Source: a virus
Reading direction: 5' to 3' (one strand)
Virus record (IMG/VR): IMGVR_UViG_3300037193_002459
Location: 1-49,782 of that record
DNA: 49,782 bases
Shown here: positions 7,491 to 49,782 of the stretch, piece after piece
How the letters are laid out: every line of letters starts with the position of its first letter
How positions within the stretch are numbered: the stretch's first letter is position 1
Program-made: the position numbers and the translations under genes
Notes under the pieces: generated by a model
What the model was told of the DNA's origin: nothing
The model's input: only the letters and a program-made list of their open reading frames with translations
Databases searched by the model: none

Positions 7491-7790
7491 GTGGACGCGG
7501 TACTCACCACGCTCATCGGGGCCGCGCCACAACTCGGTGGCGCCGGGGTCCTCCTGCTCATCATCGGGTTGCTGCTGCGGCGCGAGGCGCAGGACCGGGC
7601 CGACTACCGGGCCGAACTGGCACGGCTCAACGCCGCGCACGACGACGAGCTCCACGAGCTGCGGGTCGAAATCAAGGGCCTGCGGGAGCAGGTGGCCGAG
7701 CTGCACACGAAGCTGGACGCCGAGCGGGAACGGCGCCGCGCCGCGGAGGACAACCCCATGGGCCGTCACCGCCAGGAGTGGGCGACGTGA
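7491..7790 (+). CDS. Membrane-anchored coiled-coil protein
   Basis: 99 aa with a GTG start. One N-terminal membrane helix (GGAGVLLLIIGLLL, about residues 17-30) is followed by a charged heptad region (about residues 35-90, LHELRVEIKGLREQVAEL). The architecture resembles small actinophage membrane proteins near lysis genes (DUF2746-like), which may act as holin partners or Rz-like envelope connectors. The stop overlaps the next start (GTGA), placing it in the envelope/lysis operon. Confidence 0.65.
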   Translation: MDAVLTTLIGAAPQLGGAGVLLLIIGLLLRREAQDRADYRAELARLNAAHDDELHELRVEIKGLREQVAELHTKLDAERERRRAAEDNPMGRHRQEWAT

Positions 7791-8587
7791 ACCGCCGTCA
7801 CCGCCTCCGGCCCCCACGATCCCGACGACTGATGGTGTGGATCGCCGTCGGTCTGGTCGTGTTCCTGGCCGGGTCGGTGCTGTGGGCGCGGGTCGCGCAG
7901 CAGCAGGCCCAGAACGAGACCGGTGCCGTGGAGCAGCAGCGTGACCAGACCGCCGCGCAGGCTGCCTCGCTGGCCGAGCAGATCACGGCTGCATGCTCGT
8001 CCGGGGAGCTGACCGGCCCGGTGTGCCAGCAGGCCGAGCAGGTCGCCCAGACCCCGGTACCGCCCGCGGCGCCGGTCACCGGTGCGCCTGGCCGCCCCCC
8101 GACGGGGGCGGAGATCCAGGCTGCCGTTGACGCCTATCTGCTCGCGCACCCGCCGCCCGCGGGGCGAGCACCGACGGCTGCTGAGGTGGCCGCCGCTGTG
8201 GCGTCGTACCTGAGCGCGAATCCGCCGACGCCGGGCCGGGCGCCGACCGCGGAGGAGATCTCGGCCGCGGTCGCGCAGTACTTCGCCGCGAACCCGGTGC
8301 GCGACGGTCGGGACGGCCGGGACGCGACCGGTGAGCCGGGTCGACCGCCGACAGCTGAGGAGATCCGGGCGGCCGTCGATGCGTACCTCGCGGAGCACCC
8401 GCCGCCGCAAGGCCCGAAGGGCGACGCGGGGCCGACGTGTCCCGCGGGCACCTCGCTCCAGCCCGTCGAGTTCGCCAGCGGCGAGACGGGGCTCGGCTGC
8501 GTCGATGACGAGCAGCTGCCCGACGACGAGACCGAACAACCAACCGTCACAGCGACGCCAACTTCGGCGCCGACCACCGGCCCGTAG
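7787..8587 (+). CDS. Collagen-like repeat membrane protein
   Basis: About 266 aa from the GTG that overlaps the previous stop; an upstream in-frame GTG at 7778 is possible. An Arg-rich N-terminus and one membrane helix (VWIAVGLVVFLAGSVLW) are followed by a heptad-like stretch, then four tandem units of the form GR(P/A)PT-x2-E(I/V)-x-AAV-x3-Y(L/F), about 24 residues each. The third and fourth units are separated by a collagen-like GRDGRD segment, with GPKGDAG near the end. The tail is Thr/Pro-rich. The topology predicts an outside repeat domain. It lies just upstream of the secreted Excalibur protein and the sortase. Confidence 0.75.
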   Translation: MNRRHRLRPPRSRRLMVWIAVGLVVFLAGSVLWARVAQQQAQNETGAVEQQRDQTAAQAASLAEQITAACSSGELTGPVCQQAEQVAQTPVPPAAPVTGAPGRPPTGAEIQAAVDAYLLAHPPPAGRAPTAAEVAAAVASYLSANPPTPGRAPTAEEISAAVAQYFAANPVRDGRDGRDATGEPGRPPTAEEIRAAVDAYLAEHPPPQGPKGDAGPTCPAGTSLQPVEFASGETGLGCVDDEQLPDDETEQPTVTATPTSAPTTGP

Positions 8588-8612: not shown

Positions 8613-9275
8613 GTGAAGAAGACCGTGCTGGCGCTCGGCGCTGCCCTCGTGCTGTCCGTCGTGACAGCCCCGGCCGCGCTGGCGCAGGACACCAGCCCAT
8701 CGTGCGACGAAGCCAAGAAGGTCGTCGTCGACCTCCAGGCCGACATCGACGACACCGCCGCGAAGGAACACGTCAAGGAACTGGCCGACCTCGCGGCAGC
8801 CAAGGACGCCCGCGGGGCGGCCAAGGCCGAGGTCGAACGCCTCGAACGCCTGATCAAGGAGGCGACGGACCCGGTCGAGATCGACCGCCTCAACGGCCTC
8901 CTCGCGCCCGCCAAGGACGCCCTCGTCGCGCGCAGGACCGACGTCGACAAGGCCCAGGAGCGGCTCGACCGCGAGTCGGACAGGCTCGTCGGCCTGCGCA
9001 CCCGACTGACCGCGGCCATCACCGAGCGGGACCGCGTGTGCGGTGGTGTCACGACCACACCCACCACGCCGCCCGCGGACAACGACGTCGACTGCGGCGA
9101 GGTCACCGACACCGAGGCCCAGCGCATCCTCGACGCCGACAAGTCCGACCCCAACCGGCTCGACGTCGACGGCGACGGCATCGCCTGCGAGGACGAGTTC
9201 ACCCTCAACCCGCCCACCAACGACGTCGTGGTGACCCCGAGCGGTGGCGTGGCCACTGGCGGCGGCCCGGCGTGA
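8613..9275 (+). CDS. Secreted coiled-coil protein with Excalibur domain
   Basis: 220 aa; the GTG start after AAGGGGAGACC gives a classic signal peptide (KKTVLALGAALVLSVVTAPA) with likely cleavage after ALA. The mature protein starts with a long Ala/Glu/Lys-rich coiled coil (about residues 35-135). A Thr/Pro linker leads to an Excalibur-type calcium-binding motif: DC near residue 150, then LDVDGDGIACED near residue 190. Excalibur domains are known in bacterial surface proteins. The tail has no LPxTG, hydrophobic segment or basic end, so it is not an obvious sortase substrate. The stop overlaps the sortase start (GTGA). Confidence 0.75.
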   Translation: MKKTVLALGAALVLSVVTAPAALAQDTSPSCDEAKKVVVDLQADIDDTAAKEHVKELADLAAAKDARGAAKAEVERLERLIKEATDPVEIDRLNGLLAPAKDALVARRTDVDKAQERLDRESDRLVGLRTRLTAAITERDRVCGGVTTTPTTPPADNDVDCGEVTDTEAQRILDADKSDPNRLDVDGDGIACEDEFTLNPPTNDVVVTPSGGVATGGGPA

Positions 9276-9889
9276 GACTGCTCGCCCTCGTGCTCGGCGC
9301 CGCACTCCTCGCGGGGTGCGGTACCGAGTTCGTCGCCGACCCGCCGCGCGAGCCACGGCCCACCGTGCTCGAGCCGCAGCGGGCCGTCCCCGTCGCCGAC
9401 CCCACTGGGATCTCCATCCCGGTGATCGGCGTCGACACCGACGAGCTGACAGCGTTGGGCTTGCTCGACGGCGGCGAGCTTGATACTCCGCCACTGGACC
9501 GTCCCGGGCTGGCTGGCTGGTACGCGGGCCGCGACCCCGCGTTCCCCGGTGACGAGTGGCAGCCCGGCGAGGACGGGCCGGCCATCATCGTCGGCCACGT
9601 CGACGGGTACGGCCCCGATGGGCGCAAGGGCTACCCGGGCGTGTTCGCCCGGCTGTCCGAGCTGAAGCCGGGCGCCGAGGTCGTCGTGAAGCGCGACCAG
9701 GGGCAGGCGCCGGTCACGTTCGTGGTGAGCGGCGTCGACCGGTACCCGAAGACGGCGCTGCCGTGGGATCAGATCATGGCGCCGACCTCCGGCCCGACGC
9801 TCCGGCTGATCACGTGCGGCGGCGACTTCGACCGCGGGACCGGGCACTACGTCGACAACTGGGTCGTCTGGGCGGAGCTGGCGCCGTGA
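9272..9889 (+). CDS. Class F-like sortase lipoprotein
   Basis: 205 aa. The N-terminus is a lipoprotein signal (LLALVLGAALLAGC, lipid Cys16), so the enzyme should be tethered outside the membrane. The sortase domain (about residues 45-203) shows the catalytic His109 in IIVGHVDGYG and Cys182 in LRLITCGG. The usual Arg in the following (H)Y(R)DN motif appears to be Val194 (GHYVDN), leaving Arg188 as the nearest candidate. Sortases are Cys transpeptidases that link proteins to the cell wall. Translational coupling to the Excalibur protein and to the lysis genes suggests late-stage or lysogenic envelope modification; the substrate is not evident in this genome. Confidence 0.85.
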   Translation: MRLLALVLGAALLAGCGTEFVADPPREPRPTVLEPQRAVPVADPTGISIPVIGVDTDELTALGLLDGGELDTPPLDRPGLAGWYAGRDPAFPGDEWQPGEDGPAIIVGHVDGYGPDGRKGYPGVFARLSELKPGAEVVVKRDQGQAPVTFVVSGVDRYPKTALPWDQIMAPTSGPTLRLITCGGDFDRGTGHYVDNWVVWAELAP

Positions 9890-10032
9890 CGTGCGCGTCC
9901 TGCGGCCACATGCGATCCGCCCACGAGCACTACCAGTCGACCTCCGCGCCGGGCGCGTGCGCGATCTGCTGGTGCCCGAAGTTCGCCACACCGATCTGGC
10001 AGCTGGTCTGGGACTGGGTCCGAGGGAGGTGA
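9886..10032 (+). CDS. 48-aa Cys-rich zinc-binding protein
   Basis: GTG overlaps the sortase stop (GTGA). The sequence has CASCGHMRSAHEHY followed by CAICWCPKF, giving two Cys pairs and several His residues that suggest a zinc knuckle, then an aromatic C-terminus (IWQLVWDWVRGR) that could lie on the membrane. Similar small C-x2-C-GH proteins are common in actinobacterial accessory DNA. No specific function is assigned. Confidence 0.6.
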   Translation: MTCASCGHMRSAHEHYQSTSAPGACAICWCPKFATPIWQLVWDWVRGR

Positions 10033-10277
10033 GTTCGATCGGCGACTGGTATCTCGACGAGACCGACGAGTGGCAGTACGACCGCGACGCGCCGAGCCCC
10101 GGGGCCAACCCGCCCGTGACGCCCGCGGTCGCGCCGCCGCGCGAACAGGACGACCTGTCCGAGTACGACCGCAACCCCGACCTCGAGATCGTGCCCACCC
10201 AGAAGCTGGGGCCGCTCGACGAGGTGTTGGTGCAGCCGCCGCAGGATCCCACCTGGCGTCCGGACGGTGCGGCGTGA
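10029..10277 (+). CDS. 82-aa acidic protein of lysis operon
   Basis: GTG preceded by an excellent GAGGGAGG, overlapping both the upstream stop and, at its end, the endolysin start (GTGA). The protein is acidic, Pro-rich and probably disordered (DDLSEYDRNPDLEIV), with no membrane segment or motif. Tight coupling on both sides suggests expression in step with the endolysin; a role in lysis control is only inference. Confidence 0.6.
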   Translation: MSSIGDWYLDETDEWQYDRDAPSPGANPPVTPAVAPPREQDDLSEYDRNPDLEIVPTQKLGPLDEVLVQPPQDPTWRPDGAA

Positions 10278-11062
10278 CCGCGGCCCGCGTCCTCGACGTC
10301 GCCCGCCGGGAGCTCGGTGTTGCCGAGTCGCCGGCCGGGTCGAACCGGCAGCCCTACGGCAAGGCGTACGGCTGGGACGGGGTCGCCTGGTGCGCCCAGT
10401 GGGCGTGGTGGGTGCTCACGGAGGCCGGCTGCGCCGCGCTGGTCCCGAAGACCGCCAGCACCGTCGTGATGCGGGATTGGTACCGGCAACGCGGCCAGTG
10501 GCACACCAGCAACCCGAAGCCCGGCGACCTGGTGTTCTTCCGCTTCCCGGGCAACAACAACCCGGTGAATCACGTCGGCCTGGTCGAGGTGGTCGAGCCC
10601 GGCGGCACGCTGATCACGATCGAGGGCAACACCGCCGGGACGAACGCGGGGGACCAGCGCAACGGCGGCATGGTCGCCCGCAAACGCCGCCTCTCGAACA
10701 TCGTCGGGTTCGCCCGGCCCGCCTACACCCCGCCCGAGGAGGACGACGAGTTGAGCCAGCAGCAGGTCGACCAGATCAACCGGAACATCGGCTTCGCCCG
10801 CGACCAGATCCTCACCCGCCTCGGCGTCACCAACCCGCCGAACGCCCCAGCCAAGCTCTCCCCCGAGCAGCTCGCCGGCATCGACCCGGCCCGCCGCGTC
10901 GACGTCGGCTACGCCCGCGACCAGCTCGTCGCCGAGCTCGCATCGCAGCGGGCGCTGCTCGAGGCCATCGCCGAGAAGGTCGGCATCACCGGGCCGCCTG
11001 GCCTGAACCCCAACCCCGAAGGAGACGCCCGTGACCGAGCCGCAGACGCCCGGCTTCCCTGA
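10274..11062 (+). CDS. CHAP-domain endolysin
   Basis: 262 aa. The CHAP amidase/peptidase domain (about residues 1-145) has the catalytic Cys in VAWCAQWAWW, the His in PVNHVGLVE and the acidic/Asn site in TIEGNT, which is the expected Cys-His-Glu/Asn order. After a Pro/Glu linker the C-terminal half (about 155-255) has two related segments around GFARDQIL and GYARDQLV and is probably a wall- or self-association region. There is no signal peptide, so export would depend on the holin encoded directly downstream. It degrades host peptidoglycan at the end of infection. Confidence 0.88.
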   Translation: MTAARVLDVARRELGVAESPAGSNRQPYGKAYGWDGVAWCAQWAWWVLTEAGCAALVPKTASTVVMRDWYRQRGQWHTSNPKPGDLVFFRFPGNNNPVNHVGLVEVVEPGGTLITIEGNTAGTNAGDQRNGGMVARKRRLSNIVGFARPAYTPPEEDDELSQQQVDQINRNIGFARDQILTRLGVTNPPNAPAKLSPEQLAGIDPARRVDVGYARDQLVAELASQRALLEAIAEKVGITGPPGLNPNPEGDARDRAADARLP

Positions 11063-11312
11063 CCACGCCCGGCCGCCGATGAAGACTGTCGGTTGGTCCC
11101 CGAAGGCGCTGTTCGGTGCGCTCGCCGCCGTCCTCGCGCCGATCGCCCTGGTCGCCGTCGCGGCGGTCGTGGAGACCGTGTCGGCGAACCCGGCCTTGTT
11201 CGATGGGCTGCCTGCCCCGGTGACGTTCGCGATCAACGTGGTGGTGTCGGGTGTGGGTGCGTTGCTCGCGGCCCGGCAGGCCAGCCCTGGTGTTGTTGTC
11301 GAGGACTCCTGA
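11031..11312 (+). CDS. Holin (two membrane helices)
   Basis: 93 aa; GTG after GAAGGAGACGCCC, overlapping the endolysin 3' end by 32 bases. Two hydrophobic helices (ALFGALAAVLAPIALVAVAAVV and VTFAINVVVSGVGALLAA) are separated by a short turn, with a polar N-terminus and a short acidic tail. This is the size and topology of class II holins, and the place beside the CHAP endolysin supports the call. It is the last gene before a strong hairpin terminator. Confidence 0.8.
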   Translation: MTEPQTPGFPDHARPPMKTVGWSPKALFGALAAVLAPIALVAVAAVVETVSANPALFDGLPAPVTFAINVVVSGVGALLAARQASPGVVVEDS

Positions 11313-12365: not shown

Positions 12366-12461
12366 TTCCCTGTAGGGAACTTTCCCTGGCCGCTTCCCTG
12401 CGTGCTCCCCTGCGATGACCTGCAAAGACAACCTCAGGGAAGATCGCTACCCGTTTCCCTG
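12366..12461. repeat. TTCCCTG repeat array at 3' end of ftsK-like gene
   Basis: Perfect TTCCCTG copies start at 12366, 12382, 12394 and 12455, a variant TCCCCTG starts at 12406, and inverted copies are seen at 12374 (AGGGAA) and 12435 (CAGGGAA). Copies from 12382 to 12406 are spaced exactly 12 bp apart. The array covers the last codons of the FtsK-like gene and the leader of the ParB-like gene. The same heptamer flanks the repressor genes at 25871-25971. It could be a clt/TRS-type recognition site for the translocase or a repressor operator. Confidence 0.7.
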
Positions 12462-14605
12462 AGCCTGCGCTGCAGGGCCTCCTCGACGTCCTTCAGGCGG
12501 ACCACGCTCTGCCCGTCGCTCTTCCCGACGTCCACACCCTCGACGACGAGCGCAGCCTTCAAATCCTGGAAACCCCACGAGGTGTAGGTCTCCTCGTCCA
12601 GCTCGATGAGCCGGCCGAGCATCACCGCCGTCCGCACGTTCCGCTCCTCCCGCAGCGCGGCATGGATGTTCAGCAGGTGGTCCACCTCAGTGGGCTGCGC
12701 GCCGACAACGCTCAGGTGTCGGCGCCGCTTCCGACGCTCCTTCGCCCGCTCCGCAACACGGGTGGCGTCCTCACCGTCGACGAAGTGCGTCCGCACCGTC
12801 ACCGACGCCTGCCCCGGCGCCAGCGGCACACCATCGCCGGTCACGACCAGCGTGCCCTTGTCCAGACCAGCGCGGAGCAGGTGCGGCGCGGCACCCCCGT
12901 CGACGGCCTTGTCACCGAGCGCCATCCGGGACTGCTCCTCCGTGCCGAGGGCGAGGCTGGCGCGGATGTGCGCGCCCTCCCGGACCAGCTTCGGCAGGTT
13001 CTGGTTCGTCGGGTCCTGCGTGCCCTGCCACAGGATCACGTTCACCGCCCGCCCCTGGTTGTGCAGCTTCCGCGCCGCCAGGAAGTACCGGGAGGTGGCC
13101 TTCTGCCCGCCGTACGGGCGCTTGTGCTCGTCGACAGCCGGGCACATGAACGCGACCTGCGCCTCGTCGACGATCAGTTTGATCGGGTGGAACCCGGAAC
13201 CCGGCTTACGCGCGAGCTCGCGGGTCACGCCGTTCGGGTACTTCTTCTTGTCCAGCGCAGCCATGCGCCGCTCCATCTCCCGCACGCCCTCCTCGAGCAT
13301 CTCGGTGGCGGCGATGACGTGCTCGTCGGTCGGGCCCTCGATCAACACGGTGGCGAGGCCCTCGAACATCGACCAGTCACCGATGCCCTTGAGGTCAGCG
13401 ATGCGGAACTCGACGGAGGTGTCGAGCGCAACCCACAGCGCGAGGGCCCGCACCGCGGCCGTCTTGCCCTGGTTGGACAGGCCGGTCACGAGGAGGTGGC
13501 GCTGCTTGAGCGGCAGCGCGACGGCGTCACCGCGCAAATCCTCGCCCCACGGCGCGGCACCTGTGTACAGGTCGGCGGTCACGTCCTGGTCGATGACCAG
13601 CGGCGACGGGCCGATCGGGTCGTCGAGGGCACCGGAGTCGGCGATCCACAGCCGCACGGTGCGCGCCGCGACGACGCTGATGAACAGCTCGTACTCGTGG
13701 CGGTCGAGGTTCTCGGCGAGCTTGCGGCGCCGCTTCTGGATCTCGTCGGTGGACACCCCGGACGGGAGCACGATGTCGACCTCCACGCCGCGGCCCGCGA
13801 TCCGGATGGGGCTGAGCATGGCCGCGCCGGAATCACCCATCTCCTTGATGGCGCTCCGCAGTGTGGAGATGCCGAGGTCACGCAGCGCGGTGACAACCTT
13901 CGACGGGGTGATGGGCTCGTCGGCGGCGCGGGCCCGCTCCAGCGGGGTCAGCAGCCACACCGGCGGGTTCCCGACCCGCTTGCCCTCCCGGAACGCCAGC
14001 AGCAGCACCAGCGGCCCGACACCGGCCACGACCAGCGTGGCGGCCACCTTCGCCGCGGTGAACAGAACATGCAGCGCAACACCGACGCCGAACCACCAAT
14101 CCGTCCAGGTCAGACCGCCAGGGGAAGCCCACACGGTGATCCCTGCGATGAGGATGAGCAGCCACAACGCGGCGACGGCGATACCGGTGGCGGCGAGAAC
14201 GCCGAGCACCATCCGGGGCAGCTCAAGAAGCCGTTGCACGCGGGCGTCCTTGGCCTTCTCCAGCCGTTCTGTCCAGTCGGCGAGGGCTTCACGGTCGCCG
14301 GCGATGCGGGCGAGCCGGATCTGTTCGCGCAGGTGGCCGTGGGTGATGGCGGCGCCGGTTCGTCGTGCCCAGCTGACGCCGCCTTGCCCGGCCACCCATG
14401 CACCCCGCGCTGTGCCGCGGAGCACGGCACCGCCGGTGGTGGCGACCGGCCCGGCGCGGCGGACCACCTCAACCGTGCCGCGGAGGATCCGCCTGTCCAG
14501 GGGCCGCTGCGCGTCGTCGACGAGCTCGGCGTCGAACACCATGCGCTCGGCGGTGGTGTCCGCCCGCACCTCGAGGTCGGTGCTCGGCATGTGCTGCTCG
14601 CTCAT
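12434..14605 (-). CDS. FtsK/SpoIIIE (TraB-like) DNA translocase
   Basis: 723 aa. An N-terminal coiled region is followed by two or three membrane helices (about residues 132-162 and 170-206). The motor domain has Walker A GLSNQGKT (375-382) and Walker B LIVDEAQ (477-483), then the FtsK-type segment QGTQDPTNQNLP. A winged-helix-like C-terminal region (about 640-715) may read DNA sites, as the gamma domain does in FtsK and TraB. In Streptomyces plasmids and AICEs such proteins (TraB, TraSA) are hexameric pumps that move double-stranded DNA between mycelia. The surrounding small membrane genes and DUF2637 fit that setting. A chromosome-segregation or packaging role is less likely, because a terminase is present. 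Confidence 0.85.
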   Translation of the reverse strand: MSEQHMPSTDLEVRADTTAERMVFDAELVDDAQRPLDRRILRGTVEVVRRAGPVATTGGAVLRGTARGAWVAGQGGVSWARRTGAAITHGHLREQIRLARIAGDREALADWTERLEKAKDARVQRLLELPRMVLGVLAATGIAVAALWLLILIAGITVWASPGGLTWTDWWFGVGVALHVLFTAAKVAATLVVAGVGPLVLLLAFREGKRVGNPPVWLLTPLERARAADEPITPSKVVTALRDLGISTLRSAIKEMGDSGAAMLSPIRIAGRGVEVDIVLPSGVSTDEIQKRRRKLAENLDRHEYELFISVVAARTVRLWIADSGALDDPIGPSPLVIDQDVTADLYTGAAPWGEDLRGDAVALPLKQRHLLVTGLSNQGKTAAVRALALWVALDTSVEFRIADLKGIGDWSMFEGLATVLIEGPTDEHVIAATEMLEEGVREMERRMAALDKKKYPNGVTRELARKPGSGFHPIKLIVDEAQVAFMCPAVDEHKRPYGGQKATSRYFLAARKLHNQGRAVNVILWQGTQDPTNQNLPKLVREGAHIRASLALGTEEQSRMALGDKAVDGGAAPHLLRAGLDKGTLVVTGDGVPLAPGQASVTVRTHFVDGEDATRVAERAKERRKRRRHLSVVGAQPTEVDHLLNIHAALREERNVRTAVMLGRLIELDEETYTSWGFQDLKAALVVEGVDVGKSDGQSVVRLKDVEEALQRRLRETGSDLP

Positions 14606-21151: not shown

Positions 21152-21193
21152 TGCCCCCGGCAGGACTCGAACCTGCGACCTAGAGATTAGAAG
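21152..21193 (-). other. attP: attP core: 3' half of tRNA-Arg(TCT)
   Basis: Read on the - strand this is the 3' half of a tRNA: anticodon loop CTTCTAA (anticodon TCT), TCTCT, variable region, T-arm GCAGG-TTCGAGT-CCTGC, acceptor strand CGGGGGC and discriminator A. The bases 5' of the loop (TTGAA) cannot pair with TCTCT, so the tRNA is not complete; identity starts at the anticodon loop. This is the classic structure of an integrase attachment site that restores the host tRNA 3' end. The tyrosine integrase lies 0.9 kb away. The surrounding 20965-21349 holds no convincing gene. Confidence 0.85.
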
Positions 21194-49553: not shown

Positions 49554-49782
49554 GTGCTGCCCGAGGTCACCGCCAAGCTCGACGCCGACGTCAGTGGTTT
49601 CATCGCGGCCTGGGATCGGGCCGCAGCCGCCGCCGAGCGGGCCGCTGCCCGCATCCGCGCCGCGCAGGCATCCGTCGCCGACGTCGACATCGACGCCGGC
49701 CGGTTCCGCGACCTCAACGGCGAACTGGAGCGGCTGTCCAGGACCGTGCGGCAGGTCGCCGACCAGATGCGCCAGTTCGGCA
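49554..49782 (+). CDS. Tape measure protein, 5' part (continues at base 1)
   Basis: The GTG at 49554 follows a GGGGGTGATCC-type site and opens the frame that is continuous with the ORF ending at 2105. The encoded start (LPEVTAKLDADVSGFIAAWD, then many Ala/Arg) is the usual N-terminus of actinophage tape measures. Bases 49642-49782 are the duplicate of 1-141, so the gene is 730 codons on the circle. Confidence 0.9.
   Translation, partial: MLPEVTAKLDADVSGFIAAWDRAAAAAERAAARIRAAQASVADVDIDAGRFRDLNGELERLSRTVRQVADQMRQFG
49642..49782. repeat. Terminal direct repeat from circular assembly (right copy)
   Basis: Identical to bases 1-141, as described for the left copy. The unique circular sequence is therefore 49,641 bp. 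Confidence 0.9.

Follow-up and report, generated by a model that had tools for sequence, protein, structure and literature searches.

A sortase gene and the gene directly upstream of it in a phage genome probably form an enzyme-substrate cassette, in which, late in infection, a class F-like lipoprotein sortase would couple a secreted coiled-coil/Excalibur protein to the precursor of the host peptidoglycan. Sortases are enzymes with which bacteria fasten proteins to their cell wall. The window, that is, the whole stretch of DNA analysed (49,782 nt), corresponds to IMG/VR record IMGVR_UViG_3300037193_002459, in which terminase, portal, head protease, (minor) tail, integrase and repressor families were found; its identity as a phage is sound. 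The GC content of the genome is 71%, and the phage is one of high-GC bacteria. An identical 141-bp direct repeat is present at both termini (1-141 and 49642-49782), as expected of a complete, circularly assembled genome, so it probably represents an entire genome of about 49.6 kb, opened within a tape-measure-like gene. The features of the region are as follows:

7778-8587 (+), protein with an N-terminal transmembrane segment and collagen-like/repeat sequence, probably exported (weak phrog_1806 collagen-like match, E = 0.0079)
8613-9275 (+), secreted coiled-coil/Excalibur protein of 220 aa, the proposed sortase substrate
8613-8687 (+), its signal peptide MKKTVLALGAALVLSVVTAPAALAQ, read from the sequence
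9093-9191 (+), its Excalibur calcium-binding motif (residues 161-193, DVDGDGIACE), sub-threshold for PF05901 and conserved in homologues
9237-9272 (+), its C-terminal sorting-type tail PSGGVATGGGPA (residues 209-220), conserved across phage pairs
9272-9889 (+), class F-like lipoprotein sortase of 205 aa with a GTG start
9308-9319 (+), its lipobox LAGC (LLAGC16), read from the sequence, with the predicted lipidated Cys16
9596-9598 (+), codon of the catalytic His109
9815-9817 (+), codon of the catalytic Cys182
9886-10032 (+), small Cys-rich protein whose start overlaps the sortase stop (weak phrog_1311 match)
10029-10277 (+), small ORF joining the sortase to the endolysin by overlaps
10274-11062 (+), CHAP endolysin of the same overlapping chain (PF05257, E = 1.1e-12; PHROG endolysin, E = 3e-27)
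11031-11312 (+), small membrane protein, a holin candidate from its hydrophobic segments and position

The start codon of the sortase gene (9272) overlaps the stop codon of the Excalibur protein (9273-9275) by 4 nt, which makes the translational coupling claimed in the first-pass annotation plausible; the same overlap was present in homologous pairs from four further IMG/VR contigs (L002, L004, L017 and L019). The pair belongs to a chain of overlapping genes with starts at 8613, 9272, 9886, 10029, 10274 (the CHAP endolysin) and 11031, in agreement with the placement among lysis genes noted earlier; since these genes overlap serially through the endolysin, the pair most likely shares a late lysis transcript. 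The product of 11031-11312 matched no Pfam or PHROG family. Endolysin genes were also located shortly downstream of the cassette in L056, L060, L063, L065, L066, L078, L079 and L084, whereas other cassettes adjoin a portal (L062), terminase (L069) or head protease (L076) gene. L002 and L004 also encode, ahead of the pair, a protein similar to the 7778-8587 product, and all three proteins share a strongly conserved end, CPxGxxLQxVxFASGExGLGCV.

The assignment of the downstream gene to the class F-like sortases, also made in the first-pass annotation, was borne out by profile searches and by structure prediction. The product exceeded the cut-off of the Pfam Sortase family PF04203 (E = 5.1e-16, 59 bits against 26.6) and scored 140.7 bits (E = 2.8e-41) with the NCBIfam class_F_sortase model NF033748, clearly related yet below the curated cut-off of 166, for which reason it is named class F-like. 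An AlphaFold2 model built on a 32-sequence alignment of viral relatives was used instead of an earlier, weak one from five sequences (pLDDT 65.6), and the suggested AlphaFold check of 9272-9889 returned a sortase barrel (pLDDT 90.9, pTM 0.79; Z up to 15.4 over 130 residues). The PDB chains shown among the matches to the model were all sortases, aligned over about 120-140 residues, including the bacterial C. diphtheriae SrtF (5UUS; Z = 14.0, 2.4 A, 127 residues), which has the same sortase fold and differs in sequence (20% identity over the aligned part); the protein is predicted with high confidence to take the sortase beta-barrel fold. A profile search of the PDB with the sortase family returned sortases only, and a single-sequence phmmer search of the PDB with the window sortase gave no match.

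The lipobox, His109 and Cys182 are present as first described, and the two catalytic residues are invariant in the viral relatives (n = 32/32); a lipobox-like site was found in 24 of the 32 viral class F sortases. Thr181, Lys160, Gly184 and Tyr193 were also invariant in this set (n = 32/32), and Arg178, four residues before Cys182, was kept in 31 of the 32 sequences. No conserved Arg follows Cys182; the position that the motif assigns to the canonical Arg is occupied by Asn196 in 27 of the 32 viral sortases, and its equivalent is invariant in the aligned bacterial class F set too, suggesting that catalysis may differ. Asn196, Arg178 and Lys160 are candidates for the role of the catalytic Arg.

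The upstream protein agrees with the earlier description of a secreted coiled-coil/Excalibur partner: the hydrophobic N-terminus and AxA-type end of its signal peptide are kept across five homologues, and its body is coiled-coil-like. The Pfam Excalibur model (PF05901) scored 18.6 bits, under the gathering score of 22, with the DxDxDGxxCE motif present, and the corresponding gene in the relative L064 exceeds the cut-off (24.1 bits). The statement that no LPxTG-type substrate is visible in this genome had to be abandoned, since the coupled Excalibur protein itself ends in a class F-type motif, PSGGVATGGGPA. By direct reading and by regular expression, PSGGVATG at residues 209-216 fits both PxGGxx[T/A]G and PxGGVxTG; four residues follow the TG before the protein ends, with no hydrophobic segment, membrane helix or basic tail. 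By analogy with the cut between T and G made by known sortases, cleavage is predicted between T215 and G216. No likely gene of the window other than that of the Excalibur protein has an end of this type. The suggested search of the window ORFs for LPxTG, LAxTG and NPQTN located these canonical motifs near ORF ends only in frames that look non-coding, and it was the class F-type tail that gave a positive result. Other matches of the class F-type expression in the window appear to lie in non-coding frames.

The same motif is frequent among the partners of bacterial class F sortases, which were surveyed on plasmids and large replicons of actinobacteria (Arthrobacter, Cryobacterium, Streptomyces, Rhodococcus, Nonomuraea and Embleya). 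Secreted proteins encoded directly upstream of these sortases carry PSGGADTG, PNGGVETG, PHGGIHTG, PKGHPETG, PDGGVGAG, PSGAPDTG and similar motifs; P.G...[TA]G was found in 18 of the 24 bacterial class F neighbours and a membrane helix in all of them (n = 24/24), with an Arg-rich tail after the helix. Because the motif equals that of the bacterial partners, the tail of the phage protein is read as a sorting motif of the bacterial class F type that has no anchor behind it. Among these bacterial partners, the NCBIfam (June 2026) model NF058571, "GVDTG sorting domain", exceeded its cut-off for L011 and L027, whereas L009, L029, L035 and L040 scored lower than the cut-off. Neither the window protein nor any of the tested phage substrates that lack an anchor matched the model. 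The actinobacterial pairs of class F sortase and GVDTG-domain protein (NF033748 and NF058571) resemble the phage pair in the sortase family, in the substrate directly upstream and in the PxGGxx[T/A]G motif, whereas they differ in the membrane helix and basic tail that follow the motif; the phage sortases are mostly lipoproteins, unlike the actinobacterial class F enzymes. Bacterial class F sortases in L009, L011, L014, L015, L016, L026 and L038 adjoin CHRD, ice-binding and DUF4331 surface proteins, which from their PxGGxxTG-type tails are candidate class F substrates.

Comparable arrangements have been described in bacteria. In Actinoplanes missouriensis, SrtF1 and SrtF4 are encoded beside secreted proposed substrates (AMIS_11010 and AMIS_36440), as in the phage, although these pairs are chromosomal and have TM anchors; the 2026 study set the class F gene neighbours aside, with no recognised pentapeptide motif in them, and its quadruple srtF mutant was without phenotype (PMC13251363). 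Soil actinobacteria commonly carry class F sortases, five of them in S. coelicolor, and the sorting signals listed in the same work are those of classes A to E only (PMC5148588). Class E SrtE enzymes (LAXTG; PDB 5CUW and 9M6N; Z of 14-15) are actinobacterial sortases with a non-canonical signal, as is proposed for the phage enzyme, but the signal is a different one and their substrates are bacterial surface proteins. Neither the sorting signal nor the role of the actinobacterial class F sortases is settled in the open-licence literature, and in the phage cassettes the system is pared down to one enzyme and a short tag, which opens the signal to direct tests with a peptide.

A scan of IMG/VR with a diverse class F alignment recovered 34 viral class F sortase loci. 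The earlier remark that sortases are rare in phages holds for isolates, with none in 50,697 records, but not for uncultured viruses, of which about 30 contigs carry them, mostly with a matching tail protein. The suggested search for the gene pair elsewhere was also productive, yielding the homologous pairs mentioned above and cassettes in dozens of uncultured phages. The substrates of the homologous pairs end in PSGGVNTGGGPA (L002), PNGGVNTGGWKK (L004), PSGGVATGGGPA (L017) and PQGGVQTDGGVE (L019); in the last of these (L019:7321-7953), TD replaces TG beside an otherwise intact sortase, which counts against the cassette reading and offers a naturally occurring probe of cut-site specificity.

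The association between tail and sortase was counted in 30 non-redundant loci, in which the upstream gene was picked blind to its tail, as the most convincingly coding ORF on the same strand with its end close to the sortase start, and the motif was sought within the last 25 residues, using as control 426 other genes of the same loci. An end of the form P.G...[TA]G was present in 19 of the 30 upstream genes and 2 of the 426 others (Fisher p = 5.9e-24), P.{3,5}TG in 24 and 8, respectively (p = 9.9e-28), and P.GG..TG in 11 and 0, with averages of 0.38, 2.78 and 0.03 in shuffled tails; because the expressions were shaped after the first few tails seen and the pairs are related by descent, these p-values overstate independence. 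In nearly all phage pairs the substrate ends 1-9 residues after the TG, without a C-terminal hydrophobic stretch. Three loci (L073-L075) look host-like, with TM and basic tail, group with Nonomuraea and were excluded from the anchorless count. About 6 of the 30 viral loci showed no clear tail directly upstream; L071 and L072 have a motif-like stretch in a gene further off.

A motif-first search was also performed with the DNA pattern GGVxTGGGPA-stop, which carries no sortase information. Eight matches were obtained in 2.9 million IMG/VR contigs, and a sortase was encoded directly downstream in all of them (n = 8/8), strong evidence for a relation between enzyme and tag. Seven of these contigs were already known pairs; the eighth, L090, had escaped the sortase scan, and its lipoprotein sortase (PF04203, E = 1e-17) begins at the substrate stop codon. 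The bodies of the tagged proteins differ while the tails persist: Excalibur/coiled-coil bodies were found in the window, L056, L058, L064 and L066, whereas L090 has a coiled-coil-like body without Excalibur and L062 a different, possibly beta-type one, and all of them carry a tail of the same kind. The more alike two sortases are, the more alike are their tails (Mantel r = 0.60, p <= 0.0002, 26 pairs), and the L059/L061/L067 clade has its own tail, P[AT]R[VI]DTGLGG.

When 32 viral and 26 bacterial sortases, all of them class F sequences, were placed in a maximum-likelihood tree, the viral rows fell mostly in a few phage-only groups, the viral label changing 4 times compared with 19.3 when shuffled. 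In L073, the one viral row found beside a bacterial row, the partner retains the TM and basic tail. This distribution suits old phage lineages that lost the anchor, rather than repeated recent capture, with several deep branches of low support.

In the proposed mechanism, the Excalibur protein would be exported through Sec and the sortase as a lipoprotein, held at the outer face of the membrane. There the sortase would recognise the tail, Thr215 would acylate Cys182 with release of GGGPA, and the protein would be handed to an amine nucleophile, most likely the lipid II stem peptide, and become covalently bound to host peptidoglycan. Late timing is expected from the overlapping chain shared with the endolysin, and the host envelope may thereby be altered shortly ahead of lysis. 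The phage could benefit through masking of receptors on cells and debris, through interference with wall synthesis before lysis, or through display on lysogens. Lacking a membrane anchor, the substrate could be lost by diffusion, a point against the cassette; co-translation with a membrane-tethered enzyme may stand in for the absent anchor. Late envelope modification by a phage, as proposed here, is known from the receptor-blocking lipoproteins of the T5 Llp type, which, unlike the present cassette, involve no covalent wall attachment and belong to the Gram-negative outer membrane.

The integrase and repressor encoded by the phage, together with the fact that surface proteins are common cargo of lysogenic conversion, favour a different use of the pair, in which the Excalibur protein would be displayed by the prophage on the surface of the lysogen and serve as an adhesin or a superinfection barrier; this is unlikely, given that the pair overlaps the endolysin chain on the same strand, which argues for late expression. 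A role as a lysis aid, in which the sortase would load lipid II with a bulky protein so that cross-linking fails and the endolysin finishes the wall, is consistent with the overlap chain in the window and with the endolysins shortly downstream in eight further loci, but seems quite improbable with other cassettes lying near head genes instead (portal, terminase and head protease in L062, L069 and L076).

Action on host proteins, or attachment of a phage protein through a non-standard signal, had been offered as alternatives in the first-pass annotation; the non-standard signal is supported, whereas the pair can be explained without any action on proteins of the host. In its full form the host-protein reading holds that the sortase acts mainly on host PxGGxxTG class F substrates, remodelling or stripping the surface, and that the Excalibur tail is vestigial or a competitor. 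Actinobacteria do carry class F substrates with the same motif, so that cross-reaction is chemically likely; even so, we give this reading slightly less weight than the lysis aid, since a vestigial tail would decay, and this one has persisted through deep divergence, varies with the sortase and always precedes one in the motif-first scan. A chance resemblance of the tail, with the sortase a stray host gene, was rejected as highly improbable, for although Gly-rich tails are frequent in GC-rich genomes such as this Gly/Ala-rich one of 71% GC and the expression was fitted after examples had been seen, the comparison with same-locus genes (p = 6e-24), the shuffled tails (0.4), the motif-first result (8/8) and the mostly phage-only sortase clades all speak against it.

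With the enzyme-substrate cassette as the preferred reading, it may be asked how much of it was already known. Searches by tblastn of 50,697 INPHARED isolate-phage records with the window sortase, a hand-made consensus and the L061 sortase gave no match, nor did the window substrate against isolate phages; no PHROG family matched the sortase, and a BFVD fold search with the shallow and the deep sortase models returned nothing at E <= 0.001. Phage sortase-substrate cassettes or anchorless sorting tags were not found in the literature, an absence that is weak evidence because open-licence papers only were covered. Sortases and the bacterial class F partners are already known, whereas phage cassettes with anchorless tags seem to be undescribed. 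The cassettes suggest that phages attach proteins covalently to the walls of their hosts, a function annotated in no phage collection searched. We put forward tentatively, as a proposal that is more doubtful than the cassette itself, that phages have evolved their own covalent wall-attachment system, a lipoprotein sortase acting on soluble anchorless substrates and used around lysis to coat or disable the wall, for example by capping lipid II; if true, no counterpart of such a phage function has been described. A sortase that accepts soluble end tags could also be useful as a ligation tool.

Three further observations were made. In the viral record IMGVR_UViG_3300031454_000005 (L048:5845-6516), a secreted Excalibur protein ends in a canonical LPSTG followed by a TM segment and RGRR; no sortase was found in this record, and the protein may rely on the enzyme of the host. 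In the window, a 723-aa FtsK/SpoIIIE-like protein (12434-14605, minus strand; phrog_1358, E = 3e-25) adjoins the lysis genes. A 41-bp stretch (21153-21193), about 0.9 kb from the integrase, has 97.6% identity to the human-gut phage record MT837334.1; it is the only near match to isolate phage records within the first 24 kb, and could be a common attachment-site core or an artefact.
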